Origin: Closterium sp. NIES-65
Taxonomy: Eukaryota; Streptophyta; Zygnematophyceae; Desmidiales; Closteriaceae
Assembly: GCA_948144175.1 (NCBI GenBank)
Contig: CANXME010000803.1
Location: forward strand, 434,001-498,000
Reading direction: 5' to 3'
Length of the DNA: 64,000 bases
Shown: piece after piece, positions 28,161 to 59,235 of the stretch
Numbering within the stretch: the first letter of the stretch is position 1
How the letters are laid out: the number at the start of each line of letters is the position of its first letter
Program-made: the position numbers and the translations under genes
Notes under the pieces: generated by a model
What the model saw: only the letters and a program-made list of their open reading frames with translations
Database searches by the model: none
Told to the model about the DNA's origin: nothing

Positions 28161-28391
28161 AATGGTCCTTGTATTGATGTGGCCGCCATGTACAAGCATG
28201 CAGGGTATAGAGGCATACACACAAAGGCAAATCCTACCCTAAACCCCCCCCCCCTAAAGGTCTAGGAGGGGCTCTATCACTGCAAAACAATCTCCAAGGT
28301 GCAACTCCTGCCCAATGCCGCCCACAGGTGGGTTCTCAGCAGCAGCCGCCTCGCCCATCTTCATCAGGAGGCCCACAGATTGGGCCCTTTG

Positions 28392-35165: not shown

Positions 35166-35308
35166 TGGTATAGAGCGGGTCCTTCTACGGACCGTTTTTT
35201 TTTTGGGCCCACCGAAGCGCCCCCCGAGGCGCGATCTTTTTTTTTTAGCGACCCCTCGGGTCGCCATTTCCCCTGCGGCCCCGCCGCCTTCACTGACGCG
35301 GCCCCGCC
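35166..35308 (+). repeat. Duplicate copia leader fragment after the 3' LTR
   Basis: A copy of 28524-28668 apart from two shorter T tracts. It includes the primer site and all three hairpins, and ends at ...GCGGCCCCGCC where LINE A sequence (GACCATC) begins. Confidence 0.92.
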
Positions 35309-38300
35309 GACCATCTTTGTCGAAACTGATGTAGAAACTTTGCGGCATAGTATGATTTTGAGTCGGCGTTGAAGTGCCGCCGAGCCGCCGTATCTGCCAA
35401 CAGCTTCAGGAAGGTGGGTACTTCCGCGCATGGGCAGCCATAGGTGTCGACCGCCAGAGGGAAAAAGCCAACCGTCTCCGGCCGGTTGGCGTAGTGCTGG
35501 ATCTTCTTATCCGCTTGTTCCCGTGCCGCCCATCCCCTGCCTTTCTGCGCCTCTGGGTCCCTCGTGCTTATGGGATCCGTGATAGTGACATCACACACAT
35601 ATACCGCCCCACTGCTACGATCCGTCATGGTGAAGTCGGCGGTTTGTTCCTCGATGGGGCAATGAGCGGCCGACTCGCTGTGGACAATGAAACCTGCGTG
35701 CTGCGCCATGCTGATGCATGCATCCCGCAGCTCGTTGTGACTGTTAATGCGGTGTTTGCCCAAACCGCAGCGCAAGAGATGGTTCGGCAGACGGGGGTCA
35801 GTGATAGCCGTTTTGTCCGCGCAGTCACAATTCTTAGGAGTCGAGAAGGGGAGAGCTAGGCGGAATTTGATGGAGTTAGCGAAGTGGACGGGGCCCATCC
35901 GCCTAGTCGCTTCGATAGGTATCGCGGTCAGCCAATCCCCGGTGCCGTACCCCGTCAGCGAAAACATGCGCTGAGTGTGGCCGGAGAGTGGGTTCAATCG
36001 CATGTGCCTGGTTGCCTGGACCTGTACGGCGTATCTGCTGCCGTGCACCTGCAGCCCAAGGACGTGTTGGAGACGTATGTCCGATCGCTCCAACCGCTCC
36101 TTTTCCAGTATCTCCCGGGCGTCTGTCGGCAGCGCTTCCTCGCACCCCTTCACCCAAACGTGAAGGCGCGTGCTGGTATCCCGCGGTATGAGCATGTGGT
36201 CCCGTGCCTGCTTCAGTGCATTCCCATCGCACAGCGTGAGGTCGTTGAGAAACAGCGCCGCCTGGGTGAAGCTCGCGGCAAAACCGTAGACCCCCTCAAT
36301 CAAGGGGTTCGTGATGCCTAGCCCTCCTAATGACGGCGGCAGTGACGCTTGCTCCCAAACCCTCGTCTGCTCCGAATGGCTGGTCGGCATGCGGATGTCG
36401 CAGGCGGTAAGGAGCGTGGTGAGGAGGTCCATGCCCCACTGGCTCCATTTGTCGCGGGGTAGAAGATTCAGGGGCGTCGTCCGGGTCAAGTACGCGACAC
36501 GCCTCGATATGCATCGCGTGATAAGTAGTGATGCGACCTGGGGATCCGTTCGTTCGATGAGCCTCAACGGCTTCGCCATGTCAGCCAACTGCTCCGCCAG
36601 AAAAGAAGCGGCGTCGTCGTCCGGTCCAAGGAAACTGCCCAGTAGCTGGACGCCGTCGTTTGAAAACGGCACTCCGGGGGGTAAGTGCGGTGCTTGTATC
36701 GTACTGGAGCTCCACGCAGCACATTTTCGTGGGTTGTGCTCAAGCCCCAGGAGTGACAATTTGTCGGTGAAGTACGAAAATGCTGCTACAGTGTCTCTTT
36801 GTTCCCCGATGAACGTCACGTCATCCGCATACGCCAAACACAGTACCCCGGGGTGTGTGTCCGCCGTATCGTAGAGCGTGGCATGTATTCCAGCTGCAAA
36901 TAGCAGCGGGCCTAGTGGGTCCCCCTGGCGAACACCGCGTTCGCTTCGCAGTGGTTCGGAATCGAAGGTTGCATCTAGGATCAGCTGCGATGGGTTACCG
37001 TACGTGAACCTGACGAGCGGCAGCAGCGGCGAGAGGGTGGGGGTTTGTAACGCGGTGGCGATGGCTTTTCGCGAGATACTGTTGAATGCGTTCCTGATGT
37101 CTGCTTGTAGCACGAGGCTGTCGGGGCGAGCGTCCAAGAAAGCCCTGGCCGCGTGGATCACTGTCTCGGCGCCACCTGGCACTGCCACGCCGTACTGTAG
37201 AGGAAGGAAGAATTCGCGAGCTGCTTCCCCCATTGCCAGCAGGGCTGCCTTGGCTGCTAGCCTCGTCAGGCATTCGCCAATCGCGATTGGCCGAGCGCCC
37301 CCCCCTGGTTTGGCCAAGGCAATGAGGCGCGACGCGGTTAACAAATTCGCCACCGTGTCTGGCAAATTGCCTCCCAGAATTGTGTTAACCAGGGCGTGCA
37401 GATGGGTGCTGACCAGCGCATTTGTTATCGCCGAGTCGCGCAAATGCTCAAATGTCATTCCCGACGGCCCAGCTCCAACTCCATTTTCGCACCTGCCCAA
37501 CAGCTTAGCGAAATCCGCGTGGGTGATGGAAATCGTTGACTTCTCCGGTGTCGACCAGATCACCTCTTCGTCGACAGCTGGTGGGTGCTTCTGGCGCAGT
37601 TCATCCAAGATTTCGGGGCTGGGCGTGCAGACAGGCGTTGACTCCAATGCAAGAACGGCTCGTCGTAGGCTGCCACGTTTCGCCAGCCCTTCGGCCCGTT
37701 TGATTACTCCCGTCACGTCTGGCCTGTGCCGGGGCGGGGGTGGCGCGTTGACTGCAGCAATCGTGTCCAGGTACAGTTGCTCCCATTCGCCACGTTGGAA
37801 GGCTCGCAGCCGGGCCTTGACTTTCGGCCAGTCCGGTCGTTGCGGCGAGGTTTGGCGAAGGGTCAGGCGCGGGAGAAATAGCAACAGACGCCAACCTGTT
37901 TCCGACTCCGGGTTTCGGGAGAGATGCTGTAACGGCGTCAGTAACACTAGCGAGAACAGCTGACACAGGTTTGGCGGTAAGCGCCGCGACAGCGGGGGCT
38001 GACGACTATCGCTCAAAGCTGCGACATCCCAATCCCCTACCGCAGCGAACAGGTCTGTTCGCTTCGCCAGTTCCTCAGACGAAAAATAGCGGGGGGCCGA
38101 AGCGGCCTGTCGTGGTGCAGCCCCCCTACTCGCGGCCCGATTTCGCCGGGCCTGACTCGGTCCCGCTGGTGAGGCGAATGTTGGAGGCTCTACCGTCCGA
38201 TCAGCATCGTGCGGCGTGCGTGCCTCCTGGAGCGGTTGTGCTCGTGCTATCCTGGCCCCGGCTTCTCTTCTCCCAGAGCTCACCCTCATCTCGTCCCTTT

Positions 38301-38667
38301 CCTCCTCCCCTTCATCCTCGCTATCCGGCGTGGCGTCTCTCCTATAAGAGGGGTCCATTCTCTCGTCGTCTTCGTCTGCTGATTGTAGGTTGTTTAAAGC
38401 CACACGTGCTGCTGCTTGGTATCCGTTCTCTGGGCCCCCGCCGACTCCGCTTCCTGCTACGTGGTTCGTCCCGCGTGCTCCTCGCGTCCGAGATGGTGGT
38501 GATTGCCGGGGCTGATGAGCCGTCGCCAGAGCGCGTTGTCGCCTGGTCGGCTGTTGTCGCCAGGCCTCAGTCGGGACTCGAAAAGGGGACCACGGCGACG
38601 AAACCCCCTCTACCGCCTGCTCCGAACGCCGGGACAACAGTCTCTGAAAGGACTCCTCTCCACGCAC
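35290..38667 (-). CDS. LINE A RT-endonuclease ORF, 3' end displaced by copia
   Basis: A 1125-codon frame on the - strand. N-terminus: RGEESFQRLLSR and GGGPENGYQAAAR, shared by all copies. RT: LIALAKPGGGARPIAIGE, motif A QADIRNAFNSISR, motif B GVRQGDPLGPLLFAAGIH, motif C CLAYADDVTFIG. Then a C-x-C-x13-H-x3-C cluster (CDCADKTAITDP...NHLLRC) and a restriction-like endonuclease pattern (AD-x14-DVTI...ADKK). The C-terminus diverges after HQFRQRWS because the copia lies there; the true last ~35 codons are at 28255-28391. The codon at 38667 is GTG; there is no in-frame AUG until about residue 110, although the frame is open upstream to 38766. Confidence 0.88.
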   Translation of the reverse strand: MRGEESFQRLLSRRSEQAVEGVSSPWSPFRVPTEAWRQQPTRRQRALATAHQPRQSPPSRTRGARGTNHVAGSGVGGGPENGYQAAARVALNNLQSADEDDERMDPSYRRDATPDSEDEGEEERDEMRVSSGRREAGARIARAQPLQEARTPHDADRTVEPPTFASPAGPSQARRNRAASRGAAPRQAASAPRYFSSEELAKRTDLFAAVGDWDVAALSDSRQPPLSRRLPPNLCQLFSLVLLTPLQHLSRNPESETGWRLLLFLPRLTLRQTSPQRPDWPKVKARLRAFQRGEWEQLYLDTIAAVNAPPPPRHRPDVTGVIKRAEGLAKRGSLRRAVLALESTPVCTPSPEILDELRQKHPPAVDEEVIWSTPEKSTISITHADFAKLLGRCENGVGAGPSGMTFEHLRDSAITNALVSTHLHALVNTILGGNLPDTVANLLTASRLIALAKPGGGARPIAIGECLTRLAAKAALLAMGEAAREFFLPLQYGVAVPGGAETVIHAARAFLDARPDSLVLQADIRNAFNSISRKAIATALQTPTLSPLLPLVRFTYGNPSQLILDATFDSEPLRSERGVRQGDPLGPLLFAAGIHATLYDTADTHPGVLCLAYADDVTFIGEQRDTVAAFSYFTDKLSLLGLEHNPRKCAAWSSSTIQAPHLPPGVPFSNDGVQLLGSFLGPDDDAASFLAEQLADMAKPLRLIERTDPQVASLLITRCISRRVAYLTRTTPLNLLPRDKWSQWGMDLLTTLLTACDIRMPTSHSEQTRVWEQASLPPSLGGLGITNPLIEGVYGFAASFTQAALFLNDLTLCDGNALKQARDHMLIPRDTSTRLHVWVKGCEEALPTDAREILEKERLERSDIRLQHVLGLQVHGSRYAVQVQATRHMRLNPLSGHTQRMFSLTGYGTGDWLTAIPIEATRRMGPVHFANSIKFRLALPFSTPKNCDCADKTAITDPRLPNHLLRCGLGKHRINSHNELRDACISMAQHAGFIVHSESAAHCPIEEQTADFTMTDRSSGAVYVCDVTITDPISTRDPEAQKGRGWAAREQADKKIQHYANRPETVGFFPLAVDTYGCPCAEVPTFLKLLADTAARRHFNADSKSYYAAKFLHQFRQRWSAGPRQ

Positions 38668-39899
38668 CCGTGGCTCCGCAAGGCGTGGCAGCGGCTGGCC
38701 CGTCTGCTCCGCCTGCGGCTCCCGTGCTCCCTGCCCTCGTGGTGGCAGCGGAGGCTTCTCTGTCTGCTAGGGTGGCTGCTGCAATGCCTGCCCCTGCACT
38801 TGGCGCGGTCGTTGTCCCGGCCGTGTCTGTTCCCGGCGTGTCTGCGCCGCCGTCTTCTTCTTCCCCGAGGGCGGTGTCCTCCACCACTGTCTCCCCTGCT
38901 CCGGTGGTTGCTCCTCCTGGCGCGAAACCGGCGGCACCTGCTCAACTGCAGGCGGCCCTTGCAGCGCAGCCGTCTCGTCTTCCGTCGCCGGATTGCCGAT
39001 CGTCTCGCCCTCATTCCCCCTCGCCTCCTCAGGAACGCAAGTCGTCTCGTCGCCGTCGTGACTCTCCCCGGCGGTACCAGGAGCGGCCTCGCTGGCCTGC
39101 TTGGCCCGGTGGTCAAGGGGACTGGAGGGGTCCCCGCGGGCGCGGTGGTGGTGGGGGGTACCGCCCGCCGGTGACGATGGCCGATCTTCAGCGGGAGGTG
39201 TCCCGGGCCGTTCGCGAGGAGAGGGCGGCGCAAGGCCAGAGCAGTTCGTCGCGGGCTGCGCCGGCTCCCGAGGCTCCTCGTCCGCCTGTGTCTCCTGCCG
39301 TCCCTCCGCCGACCGGTCTACTTCCTTCCTCTGTCCTCGTCCCGTCTGCTCCGTCTCCTTCCGTCTCGGCGCCTGCTCCTGGGTCACGCCTGCAGTTGCC
39401 CCCGGTTCCGCCTGTTTCGGGGGTGGAGTTTGTTGCCGCTGGGGATGGCACTGCGGCTCTGCGTTCGCACCTTGCTGCTGCTGATGCGCCGCTGCTATTT
39501 CTGTCCGAGGCGCTGCAGCCTCCGCAGACGCGAGTTCCGGCAGCAACTCTTGGCCAGCTCCACCGACTGGCGGAGAGCCTCCACGCGTTGCTGCTGATCC
39601 AGGTTCTTGCTCACTCGTCTCTCCCCGTGATTCCTGAGGAGACGTTCCGCGGCCGCCAGCGTGACACGTGCTTGGACGCGGCAGACCAGCTCGCGACGCT
39701 GTTGGCACCCGTGTTGGCTGAGCCCGCGGAGGGAGGCGCTGCTGCTGCGGGACAGCTTGACGATGCTGTCCGGGGCCTGAGGAGGCACTTGCGCGCTGGA
39801 TCTGGAGCCGCGGCGATCGGCGCAAGCACAATTGTGGTCCGGGAGCTGTGGCGCTCCCTGACGGGCATTCTCCATGCCCTTGGAGCTCACCGCCTGTAG
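38493..39899 (+). CDS. LINE A opposite-strand ORF (basic, ORF1/gag-like, unknown)
   Basis: A 468-residue frame from ATG (MVVIAGADEPSPE) on the strand opposite RT. It has a Pro/Ala-rich first half; an Arg/Ser-rich stretch (SSRRRRDSPRR); Gly-rich GQGDWRGPRGRGGGGGYR; the conserved segment TMADLQREVSRAVREERAAQ; GVEFVAAGDG; and an Ala/Leu-rich helical C-terminus (LGQLHRLAESLHALLLIQV, CLDAADQLATLLAPVL, VVRELWRSLTGILHALGAHR). Differences from the other copies over the last two thirds are mostly third-position and synonymous in this frame. The first 60 codons overlap the RT frame, where the RT strand looks constrained instead, so the start is uncertain. No known domain was recognised. Confidence 0.65.
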   Translation: MVVIAGADEPSPERVVAWSAVVARPQSGLEKGTTATKPPLPPAPNAGTTVSERTPLHAPVAPQGVAAAGPSAPPAAPVLPALVVAAEASLSARVAAAMPAPALGAVVVPAVSVPGVSAPPSSSSPRAVSSTTVSPAPVVAPPGAKPAAPAQLQAALAAQPSRLPSPDCRSSRPHSPSPPQERKSSRRRRDSPRRYQERPRWPAWPGGQGDWRGPRGRGGGGGYRPPVTMADLQREVSRAVREERAAQGQSSSSRAAPAPEAPRPPVSPAVPPPTGLLPSSVLVPSAPSPSVSAPAPGSRLQLPPVPPVSGVEFVAAGDGTAALRSHLAAADAPLLFLSEALQPPQTRVPAATLGQLHRLAESLHALLLIQVLAHSSLPVIPEETFRGRQRDTCLDAADQLATLLAPVLAEPAEGGAAAAGQLDDAVRGLRRHLRAGSGAAAIGASTIVVRELWRSLTGILHALGAHRL

Positions 39900-40100
39900 G
39901 CGCGGGCTCTTCTTGCACTGTTGGGGCAGCTTGCACTGCTTGACGCGGACGGGATGTGGCGGCCGCGTGCCCCTGGAGCTCACCGCTGCTGGTTGCGGGC
40001 TCCTCTTGCTCCATGTATCTCTTAGGCCTCTGTGGAGTGATGCATGCTTGTGTATTTTCCTATAGTTGCTTATGTTGCTGTTTTCCTTGCCGCCCTTCAC

Positions 40101-40152: not shown

Positions 40153-40156
40153 GAGC

Positions 40157-40685
40157 CGCTCGGTTAGGAGGGCACACGAACTATGAAACGAATAATGAGG
40201 CACCAGGAACAGATCCTAGGGCCTTTATACTAGGCTGGAGGTGGCTGGAGAGGCTAAGGACTAGGTCTCTCTCTCTCTCTCTCTCTCCTCTCTCTCCCGC
40301 TCGGTTAGGAGGGCACACGAACTATGAAACGAATAATGGTGCACCAGGAACAGATCCTAGGGCCTTTATACTAGGCTGGAGGTGGCTGGAGAGGCTAAGG
40401 ACTAGGTCTCTCTCTCTCTCTCTCTCTCCTCTCTCTCCCGCTCGGTTAGGAGGGCACACGAACTATGAAACGAATAATGAGGCACCAGGAACAGATCCTA
40501 GGGCCTTTATACTAGGCTGGAGGTGGCTGGAGAGGCTAAGGACTAGGTCTCTCTCTCTCTCTCTCTCTCCTCTCTCTCCCGCTCGGTTAGGAGGGCACAC
40601 GAACTATGAAACGAATAATGAGGCACCAGGAACAGATCCTAGGGCCTTTATACTAGGCTGGAGGTGGCTGGAGAGGCTAAGGACT

Positions 40686-40720
<35 letters not shown>

Positions 40721-40832
40721 CTCTCCCGCTCGGTTAGGAGGGCACACGAACTATGAAACGAATAATGAGGCGCCAGGAACAGATCCTAGGGCCTTTATAC
40801 TAGGCTGGAGGTGGCTGGAGAGGCTAAGGACT

Positions 40833-40927
<95 letters not shown>

Positions 40928-41039
40928 CTCTCCCGCTCGGTTAGGAGGGCACACGAACTATGAAACGAATAATGAGGCACCAGGAACAGATCCTAGGGCC
41001 TTTATACTAGGCTGGAGGTGGCTGGAGAGGCTAAGGACT

Positions 41040-41135
<96 letters not shown>
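40157..41135 (-). repeat. Six tandem promoter monomers with (CT)n, LINE A 5' end
   Basis: Units start at 40157, 40298, 40439, 40580, 40727 and 40934. They are 141-207 bp; size differences come from the (CT)n tail. Each has CGCTCGGTTAGGAGGGCAC at its left and a - strand TATAAAGG (e.g. 40222-40229) at its centre. They lie at the 5' end of the RT strand. They read as LSLSLS repeats in one frame, which is not coding. Confidence 0.9.
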
Positions 41136-46059: not shown

Positions 46060-46530
<471 letters not shown>

Positions 46531-46620: not shown

Positions 46621-49600
46621 CTACAACTCCACCAGAGGCTCAATGACCGCAAAGCAGTCCCCAAGGTGCAACTCGTCCCCAATTCCCCCTACAGGCCGGT
46701 TTTCTACTGCCGCAGCCTCTCCAAGCTTGAGCAGGAGACCCACAGATTGGGCCCTTTGCAAGGCCACCGACCAGCGTTGCCTGAACTGGTGCAGGAACTT
46801 TGCAGCATAGAACGATTTGGAGTCGGCGTTGAAGTGGCGCCGAGCTGCAGTGTCCGCCAAGAGCTTCAGGAAGGCTGGCACCTCTGCGCAGGGGCAGCCG
46901 TAGGTGTCTACCGCAAGTGGGAAGAACTTCACTGTCTCTGGCAGGGTGGCGTAGTGCTGGATCTTCTTGTCCGCTTGCTCCCTTGCCGCCCAGCCCCTGC
47001 CTTTCTGCGCCTCTGGATCCCTAGTGCTAATAGGGTCAGTAATGGTGACGTCGCATACGTAGACTGTCCCACTGCTTCTGTCCGTCATTGTAAAATCTGC
47101 CGTCTGTTCCTCAATGGGGCAGTGCGCCGATGACTCGCTGTGGACAATGAACCCCGCGTCTTGGGCCATGCTAATGCAGGCATCGCGCACGTCGTTATGG
47201 GTGTTGATGCGATGCTTGCCCGTGCCGCAGCGGAGTAGGTGGTTAGGGAGGCGGGGGTCTGTGATGGCGGTGTGATCAGCGCAGTCACACTTCTTTGGTG
47301 TGGAGAAGGGGAGGGTCAGCTGGAAACGCACGGCATTAGAGAAGTGGGTGGGCCCTATCCTCCTGTTGGCCGCAATGGGGATAGCGTTCAGCCAATCCCC
47401 GGTCCCGTAGCCAGTGAGTGAGTACATCCGCTGCGTGTGTCCGCACAGAGGGTTCAGCGCCATCCGTCGAGTCTCCATGACCTGTACCGCATATCTGCTT
47501 CCATGTACCCTTAGTGCTAATGCGTGCTGGAGCCTAATGTCTGATCGCTCCAGCCGCTCCTTCTCCAGGATCTCCCGTGCATCCTCTGGTAAAGCCGCTT
47601 CGCACTCCGATAGCCATGCGTGGAGAGGCGTGGCGACGTCTGCAGGCAGCAGCATGTGATCCCGAGCCTGCGTCAAGGCGCCATCAGGGGCGCCGTCTAG
47701 TGATGCCAGGAAAAGCGCGGCTTGTGTGAAGCTCGCTGCGTACCCGTATACTCCCTTGATTAGGGGTTCGGTAATGCCTATCCCTCCCAAGGACGGCGGT
47801 AGTGAGGCCTGCGCCCAGACACGTGCTTGTTCAATGCGGCAGGTGGGGACGCGGATGCCGCATGCTGTGAGTAGCGCTGCAAGCAGATCAGTGCCCCACC
47901 GACTCCAGGTGTCGTGAGGCAGGAGGTGGAGCGGTGTCGTTCTGGTGAGGTATGCCACCCGCCTCGAGATACAGCGGGTGAGCAATAGCGATGCTACCTG
48001 GGGGTCGGCTTTCTCGAGGAGTGGCAAAGGATTTGCCATTTCGTGTAACTGACCCGACAAGAACTGTGATGCCCCGCTGTCAGGGCCCACAAAGCTTCCC
48101 AGCAAGCGCACGCCGTCTTGGGAAAATGGAACTCCTTGCGGCAGCTGATCCTTCACTGCTGCTTCCCTGCTCCAGGCTGCGCATTTCTGCGCGTTGTGTC
48201 TTAGCCCCAGGTGCGCCAACCTCTCGGTGAAGTGATTAAATGCGGCTACAGTGTCCGCCGCCTCCCCAAGGAATGTGACATCGTCTGCGTAAGCCAGACA
48301 AAGCACCTGTGGATATGCCTCAGCAATGTCGCGAAGTGCTGGGTGTATTCCTGCCGCGAATAGTAACGGACCGAGTGGGTCCCCTTGACGCACGCCCCGT
48401 TCGCTGATCAGTGGGTCACATTTGAAATTTGCGTCGAGGTGCAACTTGGACGGGTTACCATAGGTCAGTTTCACCAGCGGCACTAGTGGCGATAGCCCGG
48501 GTTCTTGTAACGCCGTCGCGATAGCTTGTCGGGATATGCTGTTGAATGCATTCGAGATGTCGGTCTGCAGCACCAGGCTGTTGGGTAGCTTGTCCAGATA
48601 CGCCCGCGCCACGTGGATAACTGCCTCGGCCCCACCTGGCACAACCAAACCATACTGTTGAGGCAGGAAATAGTCACGTGCAGCATCGCCCGTGGCTGCG
48701 AGGGCTGCCTTGGCTGTCAGCCGAGTGATGCACTCGCCAATCGCGATTGGTCGAGCCCCCCCACCAGGTTTGGCCAGGGCTATGAGTCGCGAGGCTGTCA
48801 GTAGGTCCGCCACCGGTGCTGGTAGGTTGCCCCCCAAAATGGTGTTTATCAATGCGTGCAGATGGGTGCTGACTCGCCCATTCGTGATTGCCGCGTCGCG
48901 CATGTGCTCGAAAGTTGTTCCCGAAGGGCCGGCACCGACCCCATTCTCACACCTCCCCAGTAGTTTGGCGAAGTCAGCGTGGGAGATGGATAATTTTGAC
49001 TCGGACGTGGGTGGCCACGTCGTTTGTCCTGATTCGGCTAGCGGATGTTTCCGTCGGAGCTCCTCCAGAATTTCTGGGGTTGGTTTGCAGACTGGCGTTG
49101 ACTCTAATGCCAACACTGCTCGGCGCAGGCTACCCCGTTTCGCCAGCCCCTCGGCTCTGCTGATGACCCCGGTAGCGTCGGGCTGATGACTTGGTGGCGC
49201 GGGTGAGTTGACTGCTTCAATCGCGTCCTTGTACAGTTGGTCCCACTCGCCACGCTGGAAGGCTCGGAGCCGGGCCTTGATCTGGGGCCAGTTCGGTTTC
49301 CGTGGCGAGTTTTGGCGAAGCGTCAGGCGTGGCAGAAAGAGGAGGAGGCGCCAACCTGCCTCTGATTCCGGGTTTCGTGACAGGTGGAGTAACGGGGTCA
49401 GTAGCGTCAGCGAAAACAACTGGCACAGGTTTGGCGGTAACCGCCGTGCCAGAGATGGTTGCCGTCTGTCGCAGAGAGCAGGGATATCCCAGTTCGCGAT
49501 GTCCGCGAACCAGTCTGCCCGCACCGCCAGCTCCTCTGGCGTGAAATAGCGAGGGAGATTTGGATTTTCCCGCACCGCCGTCGTGTCTGCGGCGGCCCAA

Positions 49601-50112
49601 TGTCGCCTGGTGCGGCCCGTCCTTGCTCGTGATGGTGTGGGTGGAATGTCGCCCGTACGATCGGCATCGGACGGTCCACCAGCGGTGTCCATTTGCTCGC
49701 CAAGGGACTGTCTTGGTCTTGCTCCCGTCCTCCTCCCATTCTCCCTTACTCCTTCCTCTCCTTCTGTCCCTTCATCTTCGCTCGAGGGCATGGGCTCCTC
49801 CCTATAAGAGGGGTCCGTTCCCTCTTCGTCATTATCTAACCTGTTTAAAGCCCTTCGTGCCTCTGACTGATAGCCGTTCTCCGGCCCTCCTCCCTGTCTG
49901 CTAGCAGCTTCGCGCCTTCCGCCTCGCGCTCCTTGTTCTCGCGATGGTGATTGCTGGTGTGACCGATTACTCGCCAATGCACGCTGGCGCTGCGTCGGTT
50001 GTGTTTGAAAAGCCGTCGGCTGCCTCCGGAGCGGGGACCATGGCGACGGGTTCCCCGCCGCCGTCTGCTCCGAAGCACGCGACAGTAGACGCTGAAAAGA
50101 CTCCTCCCCTCG
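46621..50112 (-). CDS. LINE C RT-endonuclease ORF, uninterrupted
   Basis: From the conserved RGEESFQRLLSR (50112) to the stop at 46621 there are about 1163 codons without a break; the frame stays open up to 50310. RT: motif A QTDISNAFNSISR (about 48.55 kb), motif B GVRQGDPLGPLLFAAG, motif C CLAYADDVTFLG (about 48.28 kb). CCHC cluster: CDCADHTAI...NHLLRCGTGKH (about 47.25 kb). Endonuclease: HSESSAHCPIEEQTADFTM, VYVCDVTITDP, EQADKKIQHY, then FFPLAVDTYGCP. The R2-type layout (RT, CCHC, restriction-like endonuclease; no apurinic-type endonuclease seen) suggests an early-branching non-LTR clade; the clade is inferred. No AUG stands at the conserved N-terminus (ATA before RGEE). Confidence 0.9.
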   Translation of the reverse strand, partial: RGEESFQRLLSRASEQTAAGNPSPWSPLRRQPTAFQTQPTQRQRALASNRSHQQSPSREQGARGGRREAASRQGGGPENGYQSEARRALNRLDNDEEGTDPSYREEPMPSSEDEGTEGEEGVRENGRRTGARPRQSLGEQMDTAGGPSDADRTGDIPPTPSRARTGRTRRHWAAADTTAVRENPNLPRYFTPEELAVRADWFADIANWDIPALCDRRQPSLARRLPPNLCQLFSLTLLTPLLHLSRNPESEAGWRLLLFLPRLTLRQNSPRKPNWPQIKARLRAFQRGEWDQLYKDAIEAVNSPAPPSHQPDATGVISRAEGLAKRGSLRRAVLALESTPVCKPTPEILEELRRKHPLAESGQTTWPPTSESKLSISHADFAKLLGRCENGVGAGPSGTTFEHMRDAAITNGRVSTHLHALINTILGGNLPAPVADLLTASRLIALAKPGGGARPIAIGECITRLTAKAALAATGDAARDYFLPQQYGLVVPGGAEAVIHVARAYLDKLPNSLVLQTDISNAFNSISRQAIATALQEPGLSPLVPLVKLTYGNPSKLHLDANFKCDPLISERGVRQGDPLGPLLFAAGIHPALRDIAEAYPQVLCLAYADDVTFLGEAADTVAAFNHFTERLAHLGLRHNAQKCAAWSREAAVKDQLPQGVPFSQDGVRLLGSFVGPDSGASQFLSGQLHEMANPLPLLEKADPQVASLLLTRCISRRVAYLTRTTPLHLLPHDTWSRWGTDLLAALLTACGIRVPTCRIEQARVWAQASLPPSLGGIGITEPLIKGVYGYAASFTQAALFLASLDGAPDGALTQARDHMLLPADVATPLHAWLSECEAALPEDAREILEKERLERSDIRLQHALALRVHGSRYAVQVMETRRMALNPLCGHTQRMYSLTGYGTGDWLNAIPIAANRRIGPTHFSNAVRFQLTLPFSTPKKCDCADHTAITDPRLPNHLLRCGTGKHRINTHNDVRDACISMAQDAGFIVHSESSAHCPIEEQTADFTMTDRSSGTVYVCDVTITDPISTRDPEAQKGRGWAAREQADKKIQHYATLPETVKFFPLAVDTYGCPCAEVPAFLKLLADTAARRHFNADSKSFYAAKFLHQFRQRWSVALQRAQSVGLLLKLGEAAAVENRPVGGIGDELHLGDCFAVIEPLVEL

Positions 50113-50421
50113 TATCCGCGGATTCTCACATCGTAAACGAGGCTGCGCCGTCTGCGCCGGCTGTTGCTCCTCCCGCTCCGACTGTCGCTCCTGTTCCTCC
50201 TGCTCCCGTTGTGGCGCCGACGACGGCTGCTCCTGCAGGGGAAGTTGTTGTTCCCCCTGTCCCAGTCCCTGGCGCTCTTGGCGCTCTGGAGCCGCTCCAG
50301 TTCCTGGCATTTGCGCGCTGGATCTGGAGCCGCGGCAATCGGCGCAAGTACGCTGGTGGTCCGGGAGCTTTGGCGGACATTAACTGGCATTCTCCATGCC
50401 CTTGGAGCTCACCGGATGTAG
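49944..50421 (+). pseudogene. LINE C opposite-strand ORF, deleted and frame-shifted
   Basis: It starts MVIAGVTDYSP like the others but lacks the Arg/Ser, MADLQREV and helical segments. The end (HLRAGSGAAAIGASTLVV...LGAHRM) is in another frame. Confidence 0.75.
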
Positions 50422-50876: not shown

Positions 50877-53800
50877 CTAGAGCTCCAGGATGGGCTCTAC
50901 CACAGCAAAACAGACCCCTAGGTGTAACTCTTGCCCAATACCCCCTACAGGCGGGTTCTCTGCTGCTGCTGCCTCGCCCAACTTGAGTAGAAGACCCACT
51001 GATTGGGCCCTTTGGAGGGCCACTGACCACCGCTGCCGAAACTGGTGCAGGAACTTGGCGGCATAAAAGGATTTGGAGTCGGCGTTAAAGTGGCGCCGAG
51101 CCGCCGTGTCTGCAAGGAGCTTCAGGAAGGTTGGTACTTCCGCGCATGGGCAACCATAGGTGTCAACTGCCAATGGGAAAAAGCCAACCGTCTCCGGCCG
51201 GTTGGCGTAATGTTGGATTTTCTTATCGGCTTGTTCCCGTGCCGCCCATCCCCTGCCTTTCTGCGCCTCTGGGTCTCTCGTGCTGATGGGGTCCGTGATG
51301 GTGACATCACAGACATAAACCGCCCCACTGCTTCTATCCGTCATTGTGAAGTCGGCGGTTTGTTCCTCGATAGGGCAATGGGCGGCCGACTCGCCGTGAA
51401 CAATGAAACCTGCGTGCTGCGCCATGCTAATGCATGCATCCCGTAGCTCGTTGTGGGTGTTGATGCGGTGTTTGCCCAAACCGCAGCGGAGGAGATGGTT
51501 CAGTAGGCGGGGATCGGTGATGGCGGTCTTGTCCGCACAGTCGCAGTTCTTAGGGGTTGAAAAGGGGAGGGCCAGGCGGAATCGAACGGCGTTGGCGAAG
51601 TGTACGGGGCCTATCCGTCTGGTGGGCTCAATGGGGATCGCGGTCAGCCAATCGCCGGTGCCGTACCCGGTCAGCGAAAACATACGCTGCGTGTGGCCTG
51701 ACAGTGGGTTCAACCGCATGCGCCTGGTTGCTTGGACCTGTACCGCATATTTGCTTCCGTGTACCTTAAGCCCGAGCACATGTTGCAGTCAAATATCCGA
51801 TCGCTCCAGCCGCTCCTTCTCCAGGATCTCGCGCGCGTCTAGTGGCAGACTTGCTTCGCACTCCTTGAGCCAGGAATGCATCGGCGTGCTGTCATCTCTT
51901 GGCAGCAGCATGTGGTTCTGAGCGATCGTCAAGGCGTTCTCCGATGCTAGCGCCAGGGAGGACAAGAACAGCGCTGCTTGGGTGAAACTTGCTGTAAAAC
52001 CGTAGGTTCCTTCAACGAGCGGGTCTGTAATGCCGATGCCTCCTAGCGATGTGGGCAGCGACGCCTGCTCCCACACACGTGCTTGCTCAGTGCGGCAAGT
52101 TGGCATGCGGATGTCGCAGGAGGTGAGTAAGGTAGTGAGCAGGTCCCAACCCCACTGGCTCCAGGTGTCGCGGGGGAGTAGGTGAAGCGGTGTCGTTCTG
52201 ATGAGGTAGGCTACTCGTCTAGAAATGCATCGCGTGAGTAGAAGCGCGGCTACTTGGGGGTCAGCTCGTTCTATTAGTGGCAGCGGCTTTGTCATCTCGG
52301 CTAGCTGTTCGGTTAGGAACTTGGCTGCTCCGGCGTCCGTCCCCACGTAGCTACCAAGGAGTCGTACCCCGTTCGTTGAAATCGGCAGCCCGGGTGGGAG
52401 TTGCGCTTGTGTGACTGTCGTCGAGCTCCAGGCCGCACATTTTTGCGGATTATGCGTCAGGCCCAGGCGTGCCAGCTTGGCTGTGAAGTCTGTGAATGCT
52501 GCTACAGTGGCAGAAGTGTTACCCAGGAAGGTGACATCGTCCGCATATGCCAAGAAGAGCACGTTGGGGTGTGCATCTGTAATCTCGCGGAGCGTGGGGT
52601 GTATTCCCGCTGCAAACACTAACGGGCCTAATGGATCACCCTGCCGAACGCCCCGTTCACTTTGCAGTGGTTCGCTGTTGAAATCAGAGTCGAGGAAAAG
52701 CTGCGAAGGGTTACCGTACGTCAGTTTTATAAATGGCTGTAGTGGCGAGAGTCCGGGCTCCAGTAACGCAGTGGCGATGGCATCTCGCGAAATGCTGTTG
52801 AATGCGTTCGATATATCGGCTTGCAGGACCAGGCTTGTGGGACGGGCATCCAAGAATGCCCTGGCTGCGTGAATTAGTGCCTCAGCTCCACCTGGCACTG
52901 CCACGCCGTACTGAATTGGCAGGAAATGTTCGCGTGCAGCTTCTCCCATGGCTATCAGGGCTGCCTTGGCCGTCAGCCTTGTCAAGCATTCGCCTATCGC
53001 AATTGGCCGGGCTCCTCCCCCAGGCTTGGCCAAAGCTATGAGCCGTGACGCTGTCAGGATTTTTGCGACCGGGCCTGGCAAATTCCCTCCGAGAATGGTA
53101 TTGACCAAGGCGTGCAGATGGGTGCTAACCATTCCGTTGGTGATCGCTGCGTCACGTAGGTGCTCAAATGTCGTACCCGAAGGTCCGGCCCCTACCCCGT
53201 TCTCGCACCTTCCAAGAAGCTTGGAGAACTCAGCATGAGTGATGGAAAGCTTTGACTCTGGTGGCTCGGGCCAGGTCACTGCTTCGGGTACTGCTGGCGG
53301 GTGCTTCTGTCGCAGCTCTTCCAATATTTCCTGGCTCGGGGTGCAGACGGGTGTTGACTCCAGGGCCAGCACGGCCCTTCGTAGGCTGCCACGTTTCGCC
53401 AGGCCCTCGGCTCGGCTGATGACCCCGGTCGTGTCAGGCTGGTGTCGTGGTGGTGGGGGTGTGTTGACCGCGTCGACCGCATTCTGGTATAGCTGCCCCC
53501 ATTCGCCGCGCTGAAAGGCTCGGAGCTGGGCTTTGACCCACGGCCAATTCGGTCGTTGTGGCGAGGTCTGGCGAAGTGTTAGGCGCGGGAGAAACAGCAG
53601 CAGGCGCCAACCCTCCTCGGATTCAGGGTTTCGCGATAGGTGGAGTAACGGTGTCAGAAGCGCCAGCGAGAACAGTTGGCTCAGATTAGGCGGTAAACGA
53701 CGTGTCAGCGAAGGCTGGCGACTGTCGCAGAGTGCCGCGATGTCCCAGCTCGAGATTGTTGCGAACAAGTCTGCTCTCTTCGCAAGTTCGTCAGGGGAAA

Positions 53801-54386
53801 AATAGCGGGGTGTCGGAGTGGTTTGTCGCGTCGCGACATTGGTAGTAGCGGTCTGATACCGTCGAGCGCGACCCGTCTGCCCTGGCAAGATTGGGGTTGG
53901 AATTTCACCCGTTCGATTGGCATCGGACAGTCGCTGAGCCGCCTGTGCTGCTTGCGTGGCCAAGAGCCCTACCCGCGCTACTCCTCTTCCCGTTGCCTCC
54001 CGTGTACTGCCTTCGTCCTCGATCCCCTCGTCTTCGCTTGGAGGGAGGGATTCTTCCCTATAAGGTGGGTCCCTTATCTCGTCATCCCTAGAATCCTCAT
54101 TAGTTGCCTCCAAGGCCCTTAAAGCCCTACGCCCCGCCGCTTGATACCCGTTTTCTGGACCTCCGCTTGCTCCGCTCGTAACCTGCCTCCTGGCCCCGCT
54201 GCCTCCCCGGTCTCCAGATGGTGATTGCCGGTGCATCTGAGCCATCGCCAGTGCGCGCTGCCGCCTGGTCGGCTGTGGTCGCCCTGCCTCAGTCGGGGCC
54301 CGGAAAGGCGACCATGCCGACGGAGCCCCCTGTACCGCCGGCTCCGACGCCCTCGACAACAGTCGCTGAAAAGACTCTTCCCCACG
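50877..54386 (-). pseudogene. LINE D RT-endonuclease ORF with one nonsense codon
   Basis: It is intact except for TGA near 51788 (ERSDI-stop-LQHVLG, where other copies have CGA or CGG Arg). RT: QADISNAFNSISR, GVRQGDPLGPLVFAAG, LAYADDVTFLG. CCHC cluster and endonuclease motifs follow (CDCADKTAI, VYVCDVTITDP). The stop separates RT from the CCHC/endonuclease part. Confidence 0.9.
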
Positions 54387-55291
54387 CACCCGCGGATCCC
54401 CTTGCCGTGTTGGGAGATGGCCCGTCTGTTCCTGCGGCTGCTCTTGGACCTGGGGCGCCCGTTGCTCTGCCTGCTTCCGTCCCCGACGCGCCGGCACCGG
54501 CTTCTGTTTCGTCGACGAATGCGGCGTCTGCCACCACTGGCGGCCCGGCTCCGTCGGTTGCGCCTTTAGCGGCGGCGCAATCCGCGCCTGTTGCGACAAC
54601 AGTGGACCCGGCTGGTCAGCTGGTGCGCCCGCCGTCGCCTGATCGCCGATCGTCTCGCCCTCATTCCCCCTCGCCTCACCAGGATCGCAAGTCGTCTCGT
54701 CGCCGTCGTGATTCTCCTCGGCGACACCAGCAGCAGCGTGACTGGCCTGCTCGCCCCGGTGGTCAGGGGGACTGGAAGGGTCCCCGCGAGCGCGGTGGGG
54801 GGTACCGCCCGCCGGTGACGATGGCCGATCTTCAGCGGGAAGTGTCCCGGGCTGTTCGCGAGGAGAGGGCGGCGCAGAGCCAGAGCAGGTCGCCGCGGGC
54901 TGCGCCGGCGCGCATGGCTCCTCGTCCGCATGTGCCTCCTGTGGTCCCTCCGCCGACCGCTTTACTTCCTTCCCCTGTCCTCGTCCCGTCTGCTCCCTCT
55001 CCCTCTGTAGCGGCGCCAGCTCCCGGCTCTCGTCTGCATCTGCCGACGGTTCCGCCTGTTGCGGGGGTGGAGTTTGTGGCCGCGGGTGGTGGCGCGGCAG
55101 CGGCTCAGTATGCAGCTGATGAGCCGCTCCAGTTCCTGGCGGAGGCGCGCTGGATCTGGAGCCGCTCCAGTTCCTGGCATTTGCGCGCTGGATCTGGAGC
55201 CACGGCGATCGGCGCAAGTACGCTGGTGGTCCGGGAGCTTTGGCGGACATTAACTGGCATTCTCCATGCCCTTGGAGCTCACCGGATGTAG
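54218..55291 (+). CDS. LINE D opposite-strand ORF, in-frame deletion
   Basis: 357 residues from ATG (MVIAGASEPSP) to LGAHRM-TAG. It keeps SSRRRRDSPRRHQ, MADLQREVSRAVREE and GVEFVAAGGG. About 110 codons are missing between EPLQFLAEA and HLRAGSGA, replaced by a short duplicated segment (GCGCTGGATCTGGAGCC twice). The frame survives. Confidence 0.6.
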   Translation: MVIAGASEPSPVRAAAWSAVVALPQSGPGKATMPTEPPVPPAPTPSTTVAEKTLPHAPADPLAVLGDGPSVPAAALGPGAPVALPASVPDAPAPASVSSTNAASATTGGPAPSVAPLAAAQSAPVATTVDPAGQLVRPPSPDRRSSRPHSPSPHQDRKSSRRRRDSPRRHQQQRDWPARPGGQGDWKGPRERGGGYRPPVTMADLQREVSRAVREERAAQSQSRSPRAAPARMAPRPHVPPVVPPPTALLPSPVLVPSAPSPSVAAPAPGSRLHLPTVPPVAGVEFVAAGGGAAAAQYAADEPLQFLAEARWIWSRSSSWHLRAGSGATAIGASTLVVRELWRTLTGILHALGAHRM

Positions 55292-55409
55292 ATCCGGCCT
55301 CCGCTTGCCCCTGTGTTGACATTGGTGCTTAGGATTGTGTTGATGCCGCCATAGTTTGTATGCCGTTGCTTGCAGTCAATCGTGTGCGTGTTTCCTTGCC
55401 ACCCCTCAC

Positions 55410-55745: not shown

Positions 55746-57838
55746 CTAGAGCTCCAGGAGGGGCTCGACCACCGCAAAACAATCCCCCAGGTTCAGTTCC
55801 TTCCGAATTCCGCCTACTGGCGGGTTCTCTGCCGCCGCCGCCTCCCTGAGCTTGAGTAAGAGGCCTACAGATTGTGCCCTTTGAAGGGCCACCGACCATC
55901 TATGTCTGAACTGGTGCAGAAACTTCGCGGCATGAAAGGATTTTGAGTCGGCGTTGAAGTGGCGCCGAGCCGCCGTGTCTGCTAAGAGCTTCAGAAAAAC
56001 AAGTACCTCGGCACAAGGGCAGCCGTAGGTTTCCACAGCCAGAGGGAAGAAGCTAACCGTATCTGGGCGGTTAGCGTAGTGCTGTATCTTTTTGTCGGCT
56101 TGCTCCCTTGCCGCCCACCCCCTGCCTTTCTGTGCTTCAGGGTCCCTTATGCTGATGGGGTCCGTGATGGTCACATCACAGACGTAGACTGCCCCGCTGC
56201 TACGGTCTGTCATGGTGAAGTCAGCGGTCTGCTCTTCAATGGGACAGTGGGCGGCTGATTCCCTGTGAACGATAAACCCCGCGTCCTGCGCCATGATGAC
56301 GCATGCGTCACGCAGTTCGTTGTGGGTATTGATGCAGTGCCTACCCGTGCCGCAGCGAAAGAGGTGATTTGGGAGGCGGGGGTCGGTGATAGGTGTGTGG
56401 TCAGAGCAGTCGCATTTCTTTGGCGTTGAGAAAGGGAGCCCGAGCCGAAAGCGAACGGAGTTGGCGAAATGTACCGGGCCTATTCGTCGGTTTGGGGCAA
56501 TCGGAATCGCGGTTAGCCAGTCGCCGGTGCCGTACCCCGTCAGTGAGAACAAACGCTGCGTATGGCCTGAAAGTGGGTTCGGTTTCATGCGCCTCGTGGC
56601 CTGCACCTGCACGGCGTATCTGCTGCCGTGCACCTTCAAGCCGAGTACGTGTTGGAGTCGAGTGTCCGACCGCTTCAGTCGCTCCTGTTCTAAAATTTCA
56701 CGCGCGTCCTTTGGCAATGCGGCTTCGCATTCGGTAAGCCATGTGTGCAGTGGTGTGGTGACATCCCGTGGTGAGAGCATGTGATTCCTAGCTCGGATCA
56801 GGGCACCAAATGGTTCTAGCGCCAGGGTGGAGAGAAAAAGCGCCGCCTGGGTGAAACTCGCCGTGTACCCATATACACCTTCGACTAACGGGTCTGTGAG
56901 GCCGATGCCTCCTAGTGATGGTGGCAGTGACGCCTGTGCCCATACTCGGGCCTGCTCGGTTTCGCATGTGGGGACGCGGATATCGCATGATACTAGGAGT
57001 GCGATGAGTAGGTCCCGTCCCCACTGGCTCCAAATATCGCGAGGGAGTAGGTGGAGAGGTGTCGTACGGGTGAGATAAGCCACCCGCCTGGAGATGCAAC
57101 GGGTGAGTAGCAATGAAGCTACCTGAGGGTCGGCTCGTTCAAGGAGGTGTAATGGCTTCGTCAATTCTTCTAGCTGGCTTGACAGGAATTTGGCTGCTCC
57201 TGAGTCCGGCCCTAGATAGCTTCCAAGAAGCCGTACGCCTTCCCTCGAATACGGCACTCCGTGTGGAAGCTGCGCTGGCTCGACCGCGTCGCGACCCCGG
57301 AATTGGCGGTTCGATTTTGCCGAGCATGGCGCATCCTTGCTGGTGTAGCTGAAGTTGGAATAACCCCCGTCCGATCATCATCGGACGGTCCCGGATCAGC
57401 GTGTGGGTGTTGCAGGGCTGGGCTCTCAACATCCACTGTCCTTCTCCTCGCCGTCTCTCTCGTCCCGTCTTCCCCCTCTGACTCTCCTTCCTCGCTCTCA
57501 GGTAGAGCTTCCTCCCTATAAGTAGGGTCCCGTAATTCTTCCTCCTCGTTAGCTTCTTCCAGAGCAGTTAAAGCCCTTCTTGCTGCTGCCTGGTACCCAT
57601 TCTCCGGGCCTCCACCTGTACCACTAGCCGCCTGCCTCCTAGCCCCTGGGCCTCCTTGTACGAGCGATGGTGATTGCAGGAGCTGACGGGCCGTCGCCAG
57701 AGCGCGCTGCCGCCTGGTCGGCTGTGGTCGCCACGCCCCATTCGGGCCCCGAAAAGGTGACCACGGCGACAAAGCCCCCTCTACCGCAGGCTCCGAAGCC
57801 CGTGTCAGCAGTCTCTGAAATGATTCTTCCCCTCGCAC
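55746..57838 (-). pseudogene. LINE E RT-endonuclease remnant
   Basis: The N-terminal 200 codons (RGEESFQRLLTR...GPENGYQAAARRAL) are joined near 57260 to MPYSREGVRLLGSYLGPDSG, which in other copies lies after the catalytic YADD. About 1.4 kb with the whole RT palm is missing and the frame changes at the junction. The distal part (CCHC cluster, VYVCDVTITDP, endonuclease, EPLLEL end) is open over 503 codons. Confidence 0.9.
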
Positions 57839-59127
57839 CCGCAGCTCCTCATGCCGCTCCCGATTCCGGCCCGTCTACCCCTGTTGCTGTTCCGTCCGGT
57901 CCGGCTGCTCTTCCTGCACCCCTTGCCGCTGCTGTAGAGCCGTCTGTTCCTGCCCCTGGTCCCGATCCTGAACCGTCTGCGCTACCCGCAATGTCTGCTC
58001 CCGTCGTTGCGCAGTCTGCCCCCGGCGTTCCTGCAGCGCTCCCTGCCGCTGTTGTCCTCCCTGCGGCGATCCCCGCCGTTGCACGGTCGCTGCTGGCGGT
58101 GTCTGCCACCACTGACGGCCCGGCTCCTTTGGTTGCACCCTCGACGGCGGGTCCGTTTGTGCCTGCTGTGGCTCCGATGGCCCCGGCAGGTCAGCCGTCA
58201 CGTCCCCAGTCACCTGACCGCCGCCCGTCCCGTCCTCATTCCCCCGTGCCTCGCCTGGCTCGCAGGTCGTCTCGTCGCCGTCATGATTCTCCCCAGTGTT
58301 ATCAGCAACAGCCTCACTGGGCTGCTCACCCCGGTGGTCAGGGGGATCGGAGGGGTTACCGCGGGCGCGGTGGTGGCGGGGGGTACCGTCCGCCGGTGAC
58401 GATGGCAGATCTTCAGCGGGAGGTGTCGAGGGCAGTGCGCGAGGAGAAGGCGTCGCAGAGCCAGAGCAGCTCGATGCGCGCCTCGCCGGTCCTTGAGGCT
58501 CCGCGACAGCCTGCACTCCCCTTGAGCCCGCCGCCTGTTGCCGCACCCCCTCCGCGGGTGCACATCCCAACGGCCCTTGCTCCCGCTGCGTCGGCGCCAA
58601 TCCCCGGCGTGCGTCTTCGTTTGCCGCCAGTTCCGCCTGTTGCGGGGGTTGAATTTGTGGCCGCAGGTGGCGGCGCGTCTGCCGCGCCGCGTTCACATCG
58701 GGCTGATGAGGATCAGCCGCTCCTGTTCCTGGCGGAGGCTCTTCAGCCTCCGCAGACTCGCGTTCCGGAGGCGACGCTCGGCCAACTCCATCGCCTTGCT
58801 GAGAGTCTTCATGCGCTGCTGCTGATTCAGGTGGTTGCACATTCGTCTCTCCCCGTGGTCCCTCCTGAGTCCTTCGGTGGCCGCCAGCGTGACACTTGTC
58901 TGGACGCGGCGGACCAGCTCGCGGTGCTGCTGGCACCCGTGTTGGCTGCGCCCGCGGAGGGAGGCGCTGCTGCTGCGGGACAGCTTGACGACGCTGTCCG
59001 GGGCCTGAGGCGGCACTTGCGCGCTGGATCTGGAGCCGCGGCGATCGGCGCAAGCACGCTTGTGGTCCGGGAGCTGTGGCGCTCCCTGACGGGCATTCTT
59101 CACGCCCTCGGAGCTCACCGCCTGTAG
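57667..59127 (+). CDS. LINE E opposite-strand ORF, full length
   Basis: 486 residues from ATG (MVIAGADGPSPE) to LGAHRL-TAG. It has all conserved segments: SSRRRHDSPQC, GYRGRGGGGGYR, MADLQREVSRAVREEKASQ, GVEFVAAGGG, LGQLHRLAESLHALLLIQV, CLDAADQLAVLLAPVL. It is open although the RT of the same copy is destroyed. Confidence 0.65.
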   Translation: MVIAGADGPSPERAAAWSAVVATPHSGPEKVTTATKPPLPQAPKPVSAVSEMILPLAPAAPHAAPDSGPSTPVAVPSGPAALPAPLAAAVEPSVPAPGPDPEPSALPAMSAPVVAQSAPGVPAALPAAVVLPAAIPAVARSLLAVSATTDGPAPLVAPSTAGPFVPAVAPMAPAGQPSRPQSPDRRPSRPHSPVPRLARRSSRRRHDSPQCYQQQPHWAAHPGGQGDRRGYRGRGGGGGYRPPVTMADLQREVSRAVREEKASQSQSSSMRASPVLEAPRQPALPLSPPPVAAPPPRVHIPTALAPAASAPIPGVRLRLPPVPPVAGVEFVAAGGGASAAPRSHRADEDQPLLFLAEALQPPQTRVPEATLGQLHRLAESLHALLLIQVVAHSSLPVVPPESFGGRQRDTCLDAADQLAVLLAPVLAAPAEGGAAAAGQLDDAVRGLRRHLRAGSGAAAIGASTLVVRELWRSLTGILHALGAHRL

Positions 59128-59235
59128 ACGCGGGCTCCGGCTCTGCCATTAGAGGTTTGCGCGGCTAGGCCGCGGTAGGGCTTGCCATGTTTGTATGCCT
59201 GTTGCGAGCAACTCTGAGTGTTGTGTGCTTGTCGT

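Follow-up and report, generated by a model that had tools for sequence, protein, structure and literature searches.

We analyzed a 64-kb stretch of DNA from Closterium sp. NIES-65 (GenBank assembly GCA_948144175.1, contig CANXME010000803.1, positions 434,001 to 498,000 of the forward strand; the whole stretch is called the window, and positions are counted from its first letter), in which five copies (A to E) of a long interspersed nuclear element (LINE) are arranged head to tail on the minus strand. Codon patterns in these copies indicate that antisense dual coding is very probable, with a plus-strand open reading frame (ORF) constrained as a protein and the reverse transcriptase (RT) frame that crosses it on the minus strand kept open by selection. 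The element itself is probably an ambisense, dual-coding retrotransposon lacking long terminal repeats (non-LTR), with an R2-like RT. Identity between the copies was about 70 to 81% over long local matches, with a wider spread in 200-column windows. The copies are located as follows.

About 35.2-40.15 kb, minus strand: copy A
41.2-46.15 kb, minus strand: copy B
46.57-50.56 kb, minus strand: copy C
50.83-55.48 kb, minus strand: copy D
55.7-59.34 kb, minus strand: copy E

A preliminary description of this DNA, made from the letters alone, had reported a conserved plus-strand ORF in four of the five copies. These ORFs are indeed present in copies A, B, D, and E, although the C-terminal domain of the product is not complete in copy D, which has a net loss of 81 residues. 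The ORFs of the two strands are as follows.

38493..39899, plus strand: antisense ORF of copy A, 468 residues
44579..45940, plus strand: antisense ORF of copy B, 453 residues
49944..50421, plus strand: antisense ORF remnant of copy C, with the start kept, the middle deleted, and the tail in a different frame
54218..55291, plus strand: antisense ORF of copy D, 357 residues, with the net loss in frame and in the helical C-terminal domain
57667..59127, plus strand: antisense ORF of copy E, 486 residues, with the full domain set
35290..38667, minus strand: part of the copy A RT ORF that follows an in-frame TAG at 38767, truncated at its 3' end by the insertion of an LTR element
38767..40014, minus strand: N-terminal extension of the RT ORF of copy A, 415 residues
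43890..45971, minus strand: N-terminal part of the RT ORF of copy B, open over the entire plus-strand ORF
46621..50310, minus strand: RT ORF of copy C, 1,229 residues, with RVT_1, R2-like RT, a CCHC-like knuckle, and a presumed C-terminal endonuclease
51789..55322, minus strand: RT ORF of copy D, 1,177 residues, open from an ATG beyond the plus-strand ORF through the RT domain
57875..59149, minus strand: N-terminal extension of the RT ORF of copy E, 424 residues, overlapping the plus-strand ORF

We estimated the ratio of nonsynonymous to synonymous substitution rates (dN/dS) in all six frames for the six pairwise comparisons among copies A, B, D, and E, bootstrapping over codon columns (ranges in parentheses); copy C was excluded because its plus-strand ORF is broken. 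The alignment was made at the nucleotide level with MAFFT, and the plus frame was therefore not favored. Over the whole plus-strand ORF, the six pairs gave dN/dS values of 0.36 to 0.56 in the plus frame and 0.69 to 1.16 in the RT frame. At 57667-57840 of copy E (the RGEESFQRLLSR stretch), the RT frame had a dN/dS of 0.27 (0.13 to 0.47) and the plus frame one of 1.32 (0.71 to 2.65), which bears out the earlier remark that constraint on the left lies on the RT strand. In the middle part both frames were below 1 (plus, 0.53 [0.41 to 0.66]; RT, 0.65 [0.49 to 0.83]). From the RPPVTMAD motif to the end of the ORF, the plus frame fell to 0.22 (0.17 to 0.29) and the RT frame rose to 1.81 (1.33 to 2.46), and over the last 142 codons the values were 0.16 (0.09 to 0.23) and 3.14 (1.94 to 6.1), respectively. 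The switch that the preliminary description had placed near 38.7 to 38.9 kb is located there, but it is gradual rather than sharp, extending from about 38.65 to 39.1 kb: windows starting at 38.67 to 38.86 kb gave 0.55 to 0.80 in the plus frame and 0.35 to 0.74 in the RT frame, the plus frame was the lower of the two from about 38.92 kb onward, and beyond about 39.1 kb the RT frame was above 1 in the majority of windows.

The differences among copies were distributed accordingly over codon positions. In the C-terminal part, 56, 36, and 160 differences fell on plus codon positions 1, 2, and 3 over 576 codon pairs. A hand alignment of 74 codons between copies A and B, offered earlier as evidence (7, 6, and 28 differences at positions 1, 2, and 3, with 25 of 33 changed codons synonymous), was reproduced exactly, and its frame arithmetic, in which position 3 of the plus frame is position 2 of the RT frame, is right. 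The body of the RT ORF served as a natural control. There, the RT-frame dN/dS was 0.09 (0.07 to 0.10), and differences at plus codon positions 1, 2, and 3 numbered 338, 958, and 204 over 1,899 codon pairs. In each of 35 RT-body windows of matching length, the plus-phase dN/dS was at least 2.49; thus, selection on the RT raises the plus-frame ratio and does not mimic the pattern in the overlap. These codon patterns show that the plus-strand ORF has been under purifying selection as a protein.

If the RT strand alone were coding, the openness of the plus frame and its third-position excess would be by-products of a high GC content or of a minus frame under selection. Long antisense ORFs are expected in GC-rich DNA, and the plus frames of copies A and B stay open for 672 nucleotides (nt) further upstream of the ATG. 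Against this, the plus-frame ratio drops to 0.16 in the overlap, whereas RT selection drove it to 2.49 or more throughout the RT body. The other frame with a low ratio in the C-terminal part was the minus frame that shares its third positions with the plus frame (dN/dS, 0.35), but within the four ORFs (A, B, D, and E) it is interrupted by 8, 12, 8, and 17 stops, respectively, and is therefore a shadow. The earlier contention that selection on a minus frame cannot explain the pattern thus withstood the six-frame analysis, including the minus frame best placed to contradict it. We regard the RT-strand-only explanation as extremely improbable and, unless nucleotide-level constraint with triplet periodicity exists, as refuted.

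Openness of the RT frame was assessed by permuting synonymous plus codons, with protein and codon usage kept (2,000 shuffles). The numbers of RT-frame stops expected in copies A, B, D, and E were 10.85, 9.77, 8.05, and 10.12, and those observed were 1, 0, 0, and 1; none of the 2,000 shuffles in any of the four copies had as few. From RPPVTMAD onward, 6.24, 4.61, 4.18, and 4.61 stops were expected and none was observed in any of the four (P = 0.0003, 0.0027, 0.006, and 0.0027, respectively; 3,000 shuffles). Ten other ORFs in the window, examined in the same relative frame, had 238 stops in total versus 245.6 expected, and three RT-body stretches lacked a stop deficit. In the reverse shuffle, the plus frame had no stops in all four copies versus 4.5 to 6.3 expected (P = 0.001 to 0.003). 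One frame is therefore constrained at the protein level and the other avoids stops beyond the shuffle expectation. The preliminary description had pictured constraint changing strands; the opposite constraints stand, but the RT frame is also selected to stay open, so that dual coding describes the overlap better than a swap.

An explanation that competes directly with this result is that the plus-strand ORF is the sole real gene in most of the overlap, with the RT protein beginning near RGEESFQRLLSR and the upstream openness due to chance. The RT-frame dN/dS of at least 1 across most of the right side of the overlap would fit such a downstream start, as would the single in-frame TAG that copies A (38767) and E (57875) each carry upstream of RGEESF. 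However, 0 or 1 RT-frame stop was found in each of four copies where 8 to 11 were expected, with the ten control ORFs as expected overall; the middle part has an RT-frame ratio of 0.65 (0.49 to 0.83); and the ATGs of the minus-strand leader are limited to a seven-codon upstream ORF (uORF) and the distal RT ATG. We consider a downstream start very improbable, and antisense dual coding remains the reading that we prefer.

The minus-strand leader was similar in organization in all five copies, in that no ATG other than those of the seven-codon uORF and the RT occurs between a TATA box and the RT ORF. In copies A, B, D, and E, the RT ATG lies 22 to 115 nt outside the plus-strand stop codon; reading of the RT ORF from it must therefore pass through the entire plus-strand ORF. 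In copy C, whose leader is nearly identical to that of copy D, the ATG at 50452 is out of frame with the RT ORF (from 50310). The uORFs lie at 40045, 46001, 50482, 55352, and 59188 on the minus strand, before the RT ATG in every copy, and encode different peptides (MHHSTEA, MAASRTS, MAASTQS [twice], and MASPTAA); their constant length suggests reinitiation or a regulated start of the RT ORF. The two in-frame TAGs of the overlap are about 110 alignment columns apart and may represent decay or readthrough. We also considered a minus-strand intron hiding the plus-strand ORF, with GTGAGC at the plus-strand stop in the five copies. This is disfavored because retrotransposition would remove a spliced intron; besides, the RT frame is kept open.

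Upstream of the plus-strand ORF, within RT-coding sequence, two motifs are candidates for an internal antisense promoter.

57517..57522, plus strand: TATAAG of copy E, 150 nt before the plus-strand ATG; also at 38343 (A), 44429 (B), 49803 (C), and 54059 (D)
57568..57574, plus strand: TTAAAGC of copy E, 99 nt before the plus-strand ATG; present in all five copies

TATAAG is 141 to 159 nt upstream of the plus-strand ATG in all five copies, and that ATG is the first one downstream of it in each. Both motifs are fully conserved at no other alignment position, and no other TATAA was found to be conserved among the copies. On the minus strand, TTAAAGC holds a TTA leucine codon in every copy, and TTA accounts for 33 of the 538 leucine codons (6%) of the RT body. 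Windows of synonymous conservation revealed no clear promoter island; those over TATAAG had 5 of 12 identical codons versus 1.8 to 2.4 expected, and other windows were equal or better. On balance, an internal promoter at TATAAG/TTAAAGC is somewhat more probable than not, and the motif positions are no more than suggestive.

The predicted plus-strand protein has distinct parts. Residues 1 to 165 of copy E are rich in Ala and Pro, with an isoelectric point (pI) of 4.8, and a helix is predicted at residues 246 to 265, in a block with a predicted local distance difference test score (pLDDT) of 57 to 79. Two further regions are listed here.

58162..58401, plus strand: Arg/Ser-rich and Gly-rich basic stretch, residues 166 to 245 of copy E, pI 11.9, net charge +12
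58699..59124, plus strand: C-terminal 142 codons of copy E (plus-frame dN/dS, 0.16), predicted to be helical with low confidence in a model from copy B

The full-length model had a pLDDT of 46, and the C-terminus was predicted as helices only, in line with the helical C-terminus named in the preliminary description; a confident fold was not obtained (pLDDT, 57). No Pfam model reached the cut-off for the full protein of copies B and E or for the C-terminus of copies A, B, and E, and no solved structure matched the C-terminal profile at E values up to 10. Composition and predicted helices fit an ORF1-like nucleic-acid-binding protein, as had been suggested earlier, and neither a homolog, in the viral and prokaryotic collections searched, nor a confident fold was found in its support; we put this function forward as a tentative assignment.

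A regulatory protein is the next candidate. It might tune sense transcription or copy number, like some retroviral antisense proteins, and the antisense transcript may limit sense RNA, since it would be complementary to the element mRNA over its first ~1.5 kb. An antisense promoter within ORF1 of mouse L1 limits retrotransposition (PMC3985663), and in Retand elements the proteins of antisense ORFs have been proposed to act as regulators (PMC11963269). The constraint on the plus-strand protein is compatible with any protein role. However, Pfam recognized no DNA-binding domain in it, and an Arg/Ser- and Gly-rich stretch is generally more usual for RNA binding. As our best guess, a nucleic-acid-binding partner ranks first among the roles, followed by a regulator, which is possible but doubtful.

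It is also conceivable that the plus-strand ORF derives from the host or from another element as a gene captured antisense in a common ancestor and overprinted by the RT frame, in which case it may keep its captured function rather than serve retrotransposition. In codon usage, the plus-strand ORF correlated better with Copia/Gypsy-like ORFs of the window (r = 0.65) than with the RT body (r = 0.25). However, codon usage is noisy in overlaps, and that of the minus-strand extension correlated with all three references alike (r = 0.56 to 0.57); the comparison did not identify the older frame. Moreover, the ORF occupies the identical place in all copies, and no relative of its product was found in the collections searched, which covered viruses and prokaryotes. 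We consider capture rather unlikely.

Several observations weigh against the dual-coding interpretation or against parts of it. Constraint on the plus frame is absent over the first ~57 codons of the ORF, so the real start may be further downstream. The helical domain is mostly gone in copies C and D and is complete in three of the five (A, B, and E), so that the protein is not maintained in all copies. The model of the C-terminus is weak (pLDDT, 57; predicted template modeling score, 0.50); Foldseek returned no match to it at an E value of 0.001 (best, 0.024), and most of the best 50 matches listed were helical bundles (for example, TIP47 and FAT domains) and are unspecific. No relative was confirmed in viral contigs searched with the RTs of copies C and A and the plus-strand ORF alignment, or in contigs of prokaryotes searched with the plus-strand C-terminus and RT alignments, collections that say little about eukaryotes. 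Two of the ten control ORFs had a mild stop deficit (5 versus 8.3 and 6 versus 10.5; P < 0.05). By BLOSUM sum, plus-strand synonymous changes were not detectably more conservative in the RT frame than expected, either in the C-terminal part (−215 observed versus −224 expected; 200 changes) or in the middle (−126 versus −119; 115 changes), so that RT residues in the overlap show openness only, with no further constraint; this test expects only 0.8 stops and is uninformative on them. As for the promoter, an ATG in the plus direction is also missing from about 15% of 150-nt RT-body stretches, and the conservation of TATAAG may be due to chance or driven by amino acids. Furthermore, no copy has an intact RT gene: copy A has a single in-frame TAG and an inserted LTR element; copy E has a single in-frame TAG, a deletion within the RT, and a frame change; copies B and D have two breaks and one break, respectively; and copy C has a broken 5' part. 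The constraint measured is thus mostly that of ancestral copies. Finally, every copy comes from one array, and the copies are mutually related, some with exchange; the four per-copy tests are therefore not independent, and each nevertheless stands alone.

The minus-strand protein contains a non-LTR RT of the R2 type. RVT_1 was the sole Pfam model to pass the cut-off in the RT proteins of copies C and D (E value, 4.4e-20), and the best relatives among solved structures were R2 retrotransposon proteins (E value, 1.6e-11). With the restriction-like-endonuclease LINEs (R2, R4, NeSL, HERO, CRE, and Utopia), the element shares an R2-like RT, an RT protein encoded by one sense ORF, and a CCHC-like knuckle; a C-terminal endonuclease is presumed. 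The knuckle of copy C is spaced CX1CX13HX3C, which departs from the CX2-3CX7-8HX4C of that group (PMC5678591). A conserved D...D...K pattern, which may correspond to a variant of the PD-(D/E)XK motif of restriction-like endonucleases, was seen by eye in the RT C-terminus; the 359 C-terminal residues of copy C matched neither a solved endonuclease structure nor a Pfam model above the cut-off. Four of the five copies end at a simple repeat, here (GA)n, as in microsatellite-targeting members of the group (PMC4640811), which may reflect target-specific insertion. Restriction-like-endonuclease LINEs are described as having a single ORF (PMC5678591), whereas here one long sense ORF is accompanied by a conserved ORF on the opposite strand. 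Also unlike these relatives, which bear N-terminal zinc fingers (PMC5678591 and PMC4640811), the element had no C2H2 or CCHH pattern in the minus-strand segments scanned, one ORF segment per copy in five copies, by a regular expression that unusual fingers could escape. No Myb domain was found by Pfam, the sole test for it, in copies C and D and the extension of copy E. The N-terminal extension is rich in Pro, Gln, Ala, Arg, and Gly and is likely disordered.

L1 ORF0 is about 70 residues long, and HBZ of HTLV-1 is, besides asp of HIV-1, an antisense overlapping gene of a reverse-transcribing element. Primate L1 ORF0 runs antisense at the 5' end of a LINE and depends on an antisense promoter (PMC7746726). 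It is much shorter and is driven from the 5' untranslated region, whereas the ORF described here overlaps the main ORF for about 470 codons and shows strong protein-level constraint. In mouse L1, an antisense promoter lies inside LINE coding sequence, as proposed here, and the abstract of that study mentions fusion transcripts but not a conserved antisense protein (PMC3985663). Plant Retand LTR retrotransposons likewise have a conserved antisense ORF (TRP28) whose product may bind nucleic acid, but it lies between pol and the 3' LTR (PMC11963269), whereas here the ORF overlaps that of the RT; in addition, the RT is R2-like, no LTR was seen, and no Pfam domain above the cut-off was found in the plus-strand protein. 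The asp gene opposite env in HIV-1 is, like the ORF described here, an antisense overlapping gene of a reverse-transcribing element; a study of asp reports that env codon choice reduces the chance of stops in asp and that asp is of recent origin, and its keywords include a codon permutation test (PMC8781085). That gene is viral and of about 190 residues, whereas here about 470 codons are kept among copies mostly 70 to 80% identical. Among the top matches listed in the open-access literature, no restriction-like-endonuclease LINE was seen to carry a long antisense ORF with dual coding; subscription papers and Repbase were outside this scope.

We propose that the element works like a restriction-like-endonuclease LINE, of which group it is only a candidate member. 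In the sequence, the RT ORF begins at the ATG just past the plus-strand stop and stays open through the overlap, apart from the single stops in copies A and E, with the plus-strand ORF of about 470 codons wholly within its 5' part. Where plus-strand constraint peaks, RT residues drift, and the N-terminal extension thus behaves as a loosely constrained linker. Sense RNA from the 5' repeats would give the RT protein. The internal TATAAG/TTAAAGC promoter would give rise to the plus-strand transcript, the first ATG of which would start the plus-strand protein. Its product may be a nucleic-acid-binding accessory protein of the element ribonucleoprotein, the most likely of the roles considered and still a tentative one, and perhaps takes the role of the N-terminal zinc fingers of the relatives; the lack of a zinc finger pattern in the scanned minus-strand segments would fit such a division of labor. 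In its fullest form, this model describes an ambisense LINE lineage in which the RT and a ~470-residue ORF1-type nucleic-acid-binding partner from the internal antisense promoter are both needed for transposition and the antisense protein replaces the RT zinc fingers; as a whole, we hold it to be rather speculative.

The element begins with tandem 5' repeats (40156-41135, 46150-46530, and 59290-59600), which form five copies of a 141-bp unit in copy A and, by eye, two units each in copies B and E. Each unit contains both a TATA-like box and a stretch of (GA)n, and we take these repeats to resemble the promoter monomers of mouse L1. The 3' end, CAATACAAGGACCATTA, is found at 41130, 46524, 50775, and 55643 (copies B to E) and at 28155 (copy A). 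It is directly followed by (GA)n in copies B to E but not in copy A; (GA)n also belongs to the 5' repeats of the LINE itself, and all copies sit in one array. The head-to-tail arrangement would be explained if copies had inserted into the (GA)n within the 5' repeats of other copies. Copy A is apparently split by a Copia-like LTR element at about 28.4 to 35.3 kb, with matching terminal sequence at both ends by eye, and the segment at 28155-28391 holds the part missing from the end of its RT-protein ORF together with its 3' terminus. The 5' ends of copies C and D (50290-50560 and 55160-55480) are 97 to 100% identical, versus 51 to 81% per window elsewhere, and both copies lack most of the plus-strand C-terminal domain; this likeness suggests recent exchange or a template switch. 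Elsewhere in the window are ORFs that we take to be Copia- and Gypsy-like polyproteins and a long plus-strand ORF (6336-8420), presumably of the RMD5/GID2-type E3 ligases, with a RING-like C-terminal part, which is perhaps a host gene. An Rfam scan of 34 to 64 kb at E values up to 1 gave seven matches, none at the gathering score.

To our knowledge, long antisense overlaps between two protein genes are seldom well supported. Here, a stretch of ~1.4 kb carries measurable opposite codon constraint on both strands, in copies that have mostly diverged at between one-fifth and one-third of positions, and antisense dual coding thereby becomes directly testable in a eukaryotic retrotransposon. If the plus-strand protein serves transposition, a single-ORF LINE would have gained a second protein by a route not seen among the top literature matches listed; and if that protein is made, this would be a new way for a retrotransposon to carry two genes on the same DNA.

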